In this document: positions 11,525 to 13,558 of the stretch, in pieces
How positions within the stretch are numbered: position 1 is the stretch's first letter
Layout of the letters: each line of letters opens with the position of its first letter
Source: Micromonospora polyrhachis
Lineage (GTDB): Bacteria; Actinomycetota; Actinomycetes; Mycobacteriales; Micromonosporaceae
Assembly: GCF_014203835.1 (NCBI RefSeq)
Contig: NZ_JACHJW010000001.1
Span: 4,848,501 to 4,912,500 of the forward strand
Reading direction: 5' to 3'
DNA length: 64,000 nucleotides
Program-made: the position numbers and the translations under genes
The notes under the pieces: generated by a model
Seen by the model: only the letters and a program-made list of their open reading frames with translations
What the model was told of the DNA's origin: nothing
The model's database searches: none

Positions 11525-12535
11525 TCAGGTGAGCAGGCCGATGGCCCGCTTGGCGCGGTGGACCGTGTCGGCGGCGCTGTGCCTGGCCCGCTCGGCACCG
11601 TCGGCGAGCACCCGTCGTACGTAGCCGGGGTCGCGGGTCAGCTCCGCGTGCCGTACCTGGATGGGGTGCAGTAGCGCCGTCACCGCCTCGGCCACGGCCT
11701 GCTTGAGCTGCCCGTACGAGGTGTAGTCGGCGGCCAGTTCGGTCGGCTTGCCGTCCACGCAGGCGGCGAGGATCTCCAGCAGGTTGGCCACGCCGGGCCG
11801 GTGCTCCGGGTCGTACTCGACGGTGCTGCCCGAGTCGGTGACCGCCCGCAGCACCTTGCGCCGGATCACCTCGGGCGGGTCGAGCACGAAGATCGTCCCC
11901 GTGTCGAGGGAGCTGGTCTTGCCCATCTTGGCGGTCGGGTCGGCGAGGTTCATCACCCGGGTCGCCACCTCGGGGTGCACCGCCCGGGGCACGGTGAAGG
12001 TCTGGCCGTACCGGGCGTTGAACCGGGTGGCCACGTCCCGGGCGAGTTCGAGGTGCTGACTCTGGTCGTCGCCGACCGGCACCTCCCGAGCGTCGTGCAA
12101 CAGGATGTCGGCGGCCATCAGCACCGGGTAGGTGAGCAGGCTGAGGCGTACCTGCTGCTGGCCCGCTGACTTCTCCTTGAACTGGATCATGCGATGCGCC
12201 TCGCCGTACCCGGTCGCACACTCCAGCAGGTAGTGCAGTTCGGCGTGCTCGGAGACCTGGGACTGGACGTAGAGCAGCGAGCGGTCCGGGTCGAGGCCGG
12301 CGGCGAGCAGTATGGTCGCCTGCTCCAGGGTGAGTTCGCGTACCCGGGCCGGGTCGTGTGTGACGGTGAGGGCGTGCAGGTCGGCGAGGAAGGCGATGGT
12401 CTCGCCCCGGTACTGGCCGGTGATGATCGGCTGGATCGCGCCGAGCAGGTTGCCCAGGTGCAGGTTTCCGGTGGGTTTGAAGCCGGTCAGACGCCGGGTG
12501 GCGGTCGTCGCCGTGGTCGGGATGGTCGCGGTCAT
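11525..12535 (-). CDS. trpS: Tryptophanyl-tRNA synthetase
   Basis: A 336-residue class I synthetase that charges tRNA-Trp. It carries the HIGH-type motif PTGNLHLGNLLGA near residue 20 and the KMSKS-type motif KMGKTSS near residue 190. The VGDDQSQHLELARDVATRFN segment between them is typical of TrpRS. The ATG at 12535 has GAAGGAG six bases upstream; the longer frame beginning at 12583 lacks a ribosome site. Upstream, on the same strand, lie a Trp-containing leader peptide and competing hairpins (12595-12695), so the gene is probably controlled by transcription attenuation in response to charged tRNA-Trp. Confidence 0.96.
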   Translation of the reverse strand: MTATIPTTATTATRRLTGFKPTGNLHLGNLLGAIQPIITGQYRGETIAFLADLHALTVTHDPARVRELTLEQATILLAAGLDPDRSLLYVQSQVSEHAELHYLLECATGYGEAHRMIQFKEKSAGQQQVRLSLLTYPVLMAADILLHDAREVPVGDDQSQHLELARDVATRFNARYGQTFTVPRAVHPEVATRVMNLADPTAKMGKTSSLDTGTIFVLDPPEVIRRKVLRAVTDSGSTVEYDPEHRPGVANLLEILAACVDGKPTELAADYTSYGQLKQAVAEAVTALLHPIQVRHAELTRDPGYVRRVLADGAERARHSAADTVHRAKRAIGLLT

Positions 12536-12594
12536 CGGTGGCTCCTTCGGGAGGACGCCGACCGCCGGACCCGGGGCGGACACCAGATACGCGA

Positions 12595-12655
12595 AACGGC
12601 CGCCCGGGAGGGGCGGCCGTTCTTGGTTTCGGGTACGCGGATGCGTGGGCCGCCC
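12595..12655 (-). promoter_or_regulatory. trpS transcription attenuator (terminator and antiterminator)
   Basis: On the minus strand the terminator is AACGGCCGCCC (12621-12611), a 5-nt loop, then GGGCGGCCGTT (12605-12595), an 11-bp perfect stem ending in TTT. The segment GGGCGGCC (12655-12648), placed one base after the leader peptide stop, can instead pair with GGCCGCCC of the terminator's 5' arm as an antiterminator. It can also pair with CGCCC inside the leader coding sequence as a protector stem (CGCCC-TGAC-GGGCG). These are the three competing stems of a classic amino-acid attenuator. The pairing is read from sequence; function is inferred. Confidence 0.75.
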
Positions 12656-12656
12656 G

Positions 12657-12695
12657 TCAGGGCGCCCGCCAGCAGCTCATGGTCGTCATCCGCAT
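12657..12695 (-). CDS. Trp-containing leader peptide of trpS
   Basis: A 12-codon reading frame, MRMTTMSCWRAP, whose tryptophan codon (TGG at 12671-12669) is the fourth codon before the TGA stop. Stalling there would uncover the downstream segment that forms the antiterminator. A TACGGT -10-like hexamer ends six bases before the first ATG, which suggests a leaderless transcript starting at that ATG; ATG at 12680 would give a 7-residue version. It lies 17 bp after the HTH regulator gene on the same strand. A single Trp codon is fewer than in many trp leaders. Confidence 0.65.
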   Translation of the reverse strand: MRMTTMSCWRAP

Positions 12696-12712
12696 GGTGC
12701 AACCGTAGCAGG

Positions 12713-13558
12713 TCAGGTGGCTGCCGTGGCCACCTCGACGATCAGTTTCCGGGACTCCTCGGGGGAGAGGGCGATGGTGCGCTGGTGCCGGAACACGGCC
12801 CGGAGCCGGTCGACCTCGGTCGGCTCCTCGACGAGCTGACCGCCGACGAGGTGTTCGACGTAGCCGACCGGCGGATCCTCGGGGTACGGGAAGTCGAGCA
12901 GGACGAACTGGCCCAGCTCGCCGCCGGTCGCTCCGGCGGTGAACGGCAGGACCTGGATCATGATTCGCCCATCGTCGATCAACTGGACGAGCCGGTCCAG
13001 TTGGGCGGCGAGGATCTCCGGGGTGCCGATCCGGCAGTGCAGCGCCGCCTCGCCGAGCACCAGCTGGCACTGTAATCCGGGCCGGTTGCCGAGCACCTCC
13101 TGTCGGCGTAGCCGGAGCTGGACCCGGCGTTCCACCTCGGCCGGTTTCCGGTTGACCCAGGCTGCCCCGAGAAGTGCCCGGGCGTACTCCTCGGTCTGTA
13201 GCAGGCTCGGTACGACCTGCGGCTGGAACACCTGGATCTTGGCTGCCTCGCCTTCGAGACCGACGAAGGTCCGGAACCAGTCGGCCATGACGTCCCGGTA
13301 GGCGTACCACCAGTCGCGTTGGCTGGCGTCCCGGGCGAGCTGGACGATGACGTCGGCCTCGATGCCGTGTATGCCGTAGATGGGAAGCAGGCTGTGCACG
13401 ATGACGGGGCGGGCACGAGCCCGAGCGGTCTCGATCCGCGACATTGTCGATTGGGCCATGTCCAACCGGGAGGCGACGTCTTCGAGCGTCAGGCCCGCCT
13501 GCTCCCGAAGCTGACGTAACGCCGAAGCGAGGCGACGGCGCTTGATGATCGAGGCCAT
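12713..13558 (-). CDS. XRE-type HTH regulator with DUF5753 domain
   Basis: A 281-residue regulator. The N-terminal helix-turn-helix (LRQLREQAGLTLEDVASRLD, then MAQSTMSRIE) spans about residues 10-60. From about residue 95 the DUF5753 domain follows, with the family's WWYAYRDVMADWFRTFVGLE and QVVPSLLQTEEYARALL segments and a late VQLIDDGRIMIQVLPF strand. Proteins of this type are abundant in actinomycetes and usually sit beside DUF397 genes, as here; some homologues control development and antibiotic production. The ATG at 13558 starts just before the HTH. It is divergent from the small gene at 13886, with a 327-bp region between. Confidence 0.88.
   Translation of the reverse strand: MASIIKRRRLASALRQLREQAGLTLEDVASRLDMAQSTMSRIETARARARPVIVHSLLPIYGIHGIEADVIVQLARDASQRDWWYAYRDVMADWFRTFVGLEGEAAKIQVFQPQVVPSLLQTEEYARALLGAAWVNRKPAEVERRVQLRLRRQEVLGNRPGLQCQLVLGEAALHCRIGTPEILAAQLDRLVQLIDDGRIMIQVLPFTAGATGGELGQFVLLDFPYPEDPPVGYVEHLVGGQLVEEPTEVDRLRAVFRHQRTIALSPEESRKLIVEVATAAT

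Follow-up and report, generated by a model that had tools for sequence, protein, structure and literature searches.

A gene for a tryptophanyl-tRNA synthetase (TrpRS), trpS, lies on the reverse strand of the window, which is the 64,000-nucleotide stretch of the Micromonospora polyrhachis genome that was analyzed here. A short open reading frame (ORF) and several segments able to pair with one another precede it. In window positions, the features are as follows.

12702-12710 (-): TGCTACGGT, extended -10 promoter element, which predicts a leaderless transcript
12657-12695 (-): leader peptide ORF of 12 codons, encoding MRMTTMSCWRAP, with its TGA at 12659-12657
12669-12671 (-): TGG, codon 9, the sole and putatively regulatory Trp codon, four codons before the stop
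12687-12695 (-): arm 0, AUGCGGAUG, the start codon plus codons 2-3, base of a long protector structure, covarying with arm 0'
12635-12643 (-): arm 0', CAUCCGCGU, in the 2-3 spacer, pairing with arm 0
12660-12664 (-): arm 1, CGCCC, 5' side of the protector, in the final leader codons, predicted to be covered when a ribosome stalls at TGG
12648-12655 (-): arm 2, GGGCGGCC, pairing with arm 1 to form the protector or with arm 3 to form the antiterminator, identical in sequence to arm 4
12611-12618 (-): arm 3, GGCCGCCC, shared by the antiterminator (with arm 2) and the terminator (with arm 4)
12598-12605 (-): arm 4, GGGCGGCC, 3' side of the terminator
12594-12622 (-): whole terminator hairpin, GAACGGCCGCCC-CTCCC-GGGCGGCCGTTT, with a loop of 5
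11525-12535 (-): trpS, auxiliary TrpRS of 336 aa, the putatively regulated gene, with its ATG at 12535

The leader ORF reads ATG CGG ATG ACG ACC ATG AGC TGC TGG CGG GCG CCC TGA, and a single base (C) stands between its stop and arm 2. The -10-like hexamer TACGGT (12707-12702, -) has a TG in front of it, and 6 bases separate its end from the ATG at 12695. No good TTGACA was found as a -35 box in the window, and this box is weak in most orthologs. An earlier note, made from the sequence alone, had described the ORF with one TGG near its end, the hexamer, arm 2 with its two alternative partners (CGCCC and the terminator arm GGCCGCCC), and an 11-bp terminator stem. All of these were located to the base, and the stem proved to have 11 Watson-Crick pairs and one additional G-U pair.

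A 116-nt segment of this strand folds with a z score of -3.71, and 1 of 200 shuffles was equally stable. The terminator tail is U-poor in the window (GUUUCGC). The ribosome site of trpS, AAGGAG, lies at 12547-12542 (-). On the other side of the leader, the gene for an HTH_31/DUF5753 regulator (12713-13558, -) stops 2 bases short of the extended -10; thus, the leader promoter abuts the regulator stop codon.

A search of the window against Rfam gave no family at the gathering score, and a relaxed threshold gave only chance-level matches, none of which was a T-box. A T-box riboswitch or other Rfam element was ruled out on this basis. A terminator scanner preferred the same hairpin on the + strand, on which no gene ends nearby. 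This preference was not counted, because hairpins of such kind are symmetric.

The auxiliary synthetase and its leader in Actinomycetota

Three class-Ib synthetases of the TrpRS family are encoded in the genome, and two of them are trpS. Both pass TIGR00233, the one in the window with 302.9 bits against a cut-off of 176.75. The second, housekeeping trpS, at C1:4061769, is 46% identical to that in the window. The type in the window is common to Streptomyces and other actinobacteria, mostly at ~57-79% identity, whereas the C1:4061769 type is the general TrpRS carried by relatives. For this reason, the window gene is taken to be auxiliary, and the leader is directly upstream of the second, non-housekeeping type of trpS. 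In Streptomyces, it is the auxiliary TrpRS that resists indolmycin (PMC9437257, PMC6804068). The auxiliary TrpRS differs from the housekeeping enzyme in two motifs, with GFKP replacing GIQP and KMGKT replacing KMSKS; most auxiliary orthologs have K or T in place of the Q of the GIQP motif. These changes are possibly linked to inhibitor resistance.

The same leader layout is found ahead of 70 orthologous auxiliary trpS genes, which come from Micromonosporaceae, Streptomyces, Actinomadura, Nonomuraea, Nocardioides, and others. The leader has 11-13 codons in 65 of these loci, and contains two TGG codons in 51 and one in 19. Among the 67 folded loci, 65 have a TGG at codon -4 and 51 have one at -3. 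A quick TrpRS tree requires 12 changes between the one-Trp and two-Trp states; thus, the second Trp codon has been lost repeatedly. Loss of the ORF or of the TGG in close relatives, which the earlier note gave as grounds for dropping its model, did not occur. No such leader was found in Nocardia transvalensis (L057) or in Actinotalea-type loci (L106, L113).

In 61 of 70 loci, the leader start is preceded by a TAnnnT hexamer whose end lies 6-7 nt away, compared with 1.2% of all ATG or GTG in the same loci, although the former count is somewhat favoured because starts were picked by eye among in-frame candidates, partly for their spacing from the -10. Most of the exceptions carry a GACAAT or GATAAT-like hexamer at about this position. 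None of the 70 leader starts is preceded within 16 nt by a Shine-Dalgarno-like site. From this conserved promoter spacing and the absent Shine-Dalgarno sites, the leader transcript is predicted to be leaderless.

Two observations concern individual loci. The trpS leader of one relative (L009, G015) has lost the usual stop, has CGA instead, and reads ...GWWRSDGRPPFSA up to its stop. Because of this loss, ribosomes would run through arm 2, and the locus is a natural test of the attenuation mechanism. Three Streptomyces loci (L054, L065, L080) have in common TGTCAAC, the reverse complement of the -35 box, ~30 nt before the -10, which might belong to a divergent promoter or serve as a regulator site.

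A covariance model of the leader found the window site in its own genome with E = 1.7e-26, a site that belongs to the training set of the model. Matches occur in 174 of 201 Micromonosporaceae genomes, a count in which trpS and biosynthetic sites are mixed and unsorted. A second site in the same genome (L152; C1:6252515-6252632, -; E 5e-7) precedes a 637-aa protein with chorismate-binding and glutamine-amidotransferase domains, which scores below the NCBIfam anthranilate synthase cut-offs. Its leader, VLARLNSWWPAYPAAIARA, is lengthened by TAT where the usual stop stands, and so this copy of the attenuator may be altered or degraded. Leaders before the same gene type in relatives read MSARLNSWWPA, MTARLNWWHA, and similar, and other model matches precede anthranilate-synthase-like genes with the leader MTTFAFNWWWRR, each ending in a stop. 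In one further relative (L155, G007), a model match precedes a different TrpRS type, ~35% identical to that in the window; this Trp leader, MRLRANLAWWPS, also looks leaderless and shares the arms.

Conserved pairing and a covarying basal stem

In 49 sequences, arms 2 and 3 pair in 96.9% of cells and arms 3 and 4 in 100%. The antiterminator (2:3) and the terminator (3:4) are mutually exclusive, and their pairing is conserved. In the window, the protector (1:2) comprises only 5 contiguous pairs. The competing stems proposed in the earlier note are conserved across Actinomycetota, as are the predicted leaderless start and the placement of the TGG, where a stalled ribosome would cover arm 1 and not arm 2. 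The register of the arms switches jointly, from GGGCGGCC/GGCCGCCC in Micromonosporaceae to CGGCGGCC/GGCCGCCG in Streptomyces. The earlier note had also looked to compensatory changes in its stems. Because arms 2, 3, and 4 are nearly invariant in Micromonosporaceae and their allies, covariation in 2:3 and 3:4 is uninformative. Covariation is found instead in a long stem that the note had overlooked.

This stem, 0:0', joins the 5' end of the leader (12695-12687) to the arm 2-arm 3 spacer (12643-12635). The shuffle, slide, and swap controls applied to it allow for relatedness only in part. In 49 non-Streptomyces sequences, 79.8% of cells are paired, compared with 74.5% when shuffled, and 28 two-sided changes are seen, compared with 15.3 (0 of 500 shuffles as high). 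Registers slid along the sequence gave lower values than the true one. In 13 Streptomyces sequences, where arm 0 is formed by codons 3-5, 95.2% of cells are paired, with 12 two-sided changes (0 of 500 shuffles). Exchange of spacers between species weakens the pairing, from a mean duplex energy of -12.8 kcal/mol with a species' own spacer to -10.3 kcal/mol when swapped. Thus, stem 0:0' covaries. Among nine sister elements, seven have a stem of the 0:0' type with at least 7 pairs, only three of them below 5% of shuffles.

Simulated folding and the proposed control of trpS

Partial transcripts of 67 loci were folded with a fixed ribosome footprint reaching 12 nt downstream from the A-site codon, a value that is general knowledge. 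When a stall at the first TGG is simulated, the antiterminator forms in 67 of 67 loci. With the ribosome at the stop, 2:3 forms in none of the 67 and the terminator in all of them. When no ribosome is present, 1:2 is found in 64, 0:0' in 45, and the terminator in all 67. In the window, the stall gives 8 pairs of 2:3, and there are none with the ribosome at the stop, where the simulated footprint covers TGACGGGCGGCC, that is, arm 2. Without a ribosome, arm 2 of the window is bound in 1:2, and stem 0:0' is formed as well.

In the mechanism that we infer for M. polyrhachis, RNA polymerase would start on the A of the leader ATG or on a neighboring base, and the ribosome would initiate directly on the 5' end. 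With ample Trp-tRNA, the ribosome would get to the stop and cover arm 2 (TGA CGGGCGGCC spans 12 nt, roughly the half of the footprint that lies downstream). Arms 3 and 4 would then pair, and transcription would end before trpS. When charged tRNA-Trp is scarce, because of starvation or because the housekeeping TrpRS is inhibited, the ribosome would stall at the single TGG four codons earlier. It would cover arm 1 and leave arm 2 free, 2:3 would form before arm 4 is made, and trpS would be transcribed. If the leader is not translated, 0:0' and 1:2 would fold first and lock arm 2, so that termination would occur by default.

It is very probable that a leaderless, Trp-responsive, ribosome-mediated transcription attenuator controls the auxiliary trpS. 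The attenuation by stalling at TGG that the earlier note had envisaged stands, as far as the conserved layout and the simulated folding can support it.

The hairpin might instead be a mere terminator of the HTH/DUF5753 regulator, which lies upstream on the same strand with its stop ~90 nt ahead of the hairpin, and the small ORF might be there by chance. However, 70 loci from several families of actinobacteria have kept the leader with its Trp codons, arm 2, and the spacing of the promoter together with trpS. None of this would be required of a simple terminator, and the explanation is hardly credible. Trp-dependent attenuation could also be real but translational, with the hairpin hiding the ribosome site of trpS. 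The U-poor tail of the window hairpin would fit such control, as would actinobacterial leader-peptide systems, some of which are without clear terminators (PMC1262725, PMC8079986). Yet the ribosome site (12547-12542) is 46 nt past the hairpin and, by inspection, is not complementary to its arms, and several orthologs (L018, L022, L063, L064) have terminator tails of TTTT or longer, which makes translational control very unlikely.

Another explanation is that a transcription factor such as WblC/WhiB7 is the main control of trpS and the attenuator is secondary. It is favored by S. coelicolor, in which trpS (SCO3334) is in the WblC regulon (PMC7157823). However, GAAAWY is absent within 45 nt before the -10 across the ortholog set, with one exception (L043). 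By eye, the window has GAAACT 36 nt before the -10, which was counted as outside the expected WblC spacing. A leading role for such a factor is thus quite improbable, and control by WblC and control by the attenuator would not exclude each other.

The U-poor tail of the window hairpin, which may not terminate efficiently, and the short protector are points against the transcription attenuator preferred here. A further reading concerns stem 0:0', which in Micromonosporaceae might be a dedicated, conserved lock on the start codon. The attenuator would then be closed unless a ribosome loads at once, and the class would sense ribosome availability along with Trp-tRNA charging. We regard this idea as tentative and rather doubtful.

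Relation to known attenuators

The mechanism is already known from Streptomyces, and the window attenuator is a conserved relative, not a new mechanism. Vecchione and Sello (J Bacteriol 192:3565) reportedly placed an auxiliary trpS under ribosome-mediated attenuation in 2010. Attenuators were also predicted ahead of trpS in some Streptomyces by Seliverstov et al. in 2005, with a candidate at S. avermitilis trpS2 (PMC1262725). In S. lividans, RNA-seq annotation gave trpL2, MMTRTCTQLWRAA, a leaderless ORF with one Trp codon and no U-rich tail ahead of trpS (PMC8079986). The single Trp codon and the leaderless leader, which the earlier note had called unusual, are thus both on record, and the former recurs in the 19 orthologs counted above.

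A literature search found no description of how widely the attenuator is spread over Actinomycetota, of the long basal stem, or of repeated loss of the second Trp codon, and the stem is not claimed to be new. What is added here is the covarying stem 0:0', this repeated loss, and the sister attenuators before anthranilate-synthase-like genes. The Streptomyces auxiliary-trpS attenuator emerges as an RNA switch that is widely shared in Actinomycetota and absent from Rfam, and it precedes a TrpRS class that in Streptomyces is associated with indolmycin resistance. The set of 70 members offers testable positions, namely the TGG at -4, the second TGG with its recurrent loss, and the long basal stem, of which the leaderless start codon is part.

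The window leader resembles S. lividans trpL2/SLIV_21112 in its place ahead of trpS, single Trp codon, two hairpins, and U-poor tail. They differ in their peptides (MRMTTMSCWRAP compared with MMTRTCTQLWRAA), and trpL2 is leaderless by RNA-seq, whereas the window leader is predicted to be so from sequence. Streptomyces leaders of auxiliary trpS have 13 codons and end in W(W/R)AA before the stop. The same long basal stem is present in the 13 Streptomyces loci analyzed, but arm 0 lies at codons 1-3 in the window and at codons 3-5 in Streptomyces, and the arm register is GGGCGGCC in the former and CGGCGGCC in the latter.

Actinobacterial trp attenuators (S. lividans trpL1/trpE, S. venezuelae, and Corynebacterium) likewise have a leader with Trp codons, triple complementarity, and a terminator, and S. 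lividans trpL1 is leaderless too. Unlike the window element, they control biosynthetic genes and have two or three consecutive Trp codons. Mycobacterial cysteine attenuators share with the window the use of a leaderless small ORF as an amino-acid attenuator, and Cys leaders are said to have been predicted by Seliverstov in 2005; these attenuators differ in having cysteine codons and no obvious terminators. The four-arm logic of the E. coli trp operon attenuator, with a stall at Trp codons and pairings 1:2, 2:3, and 3:4, is the same as that proposed here. The E. coli trp leader has a Shine-Dalgarno site and two Trp codons, and it controls trpEDCBA.
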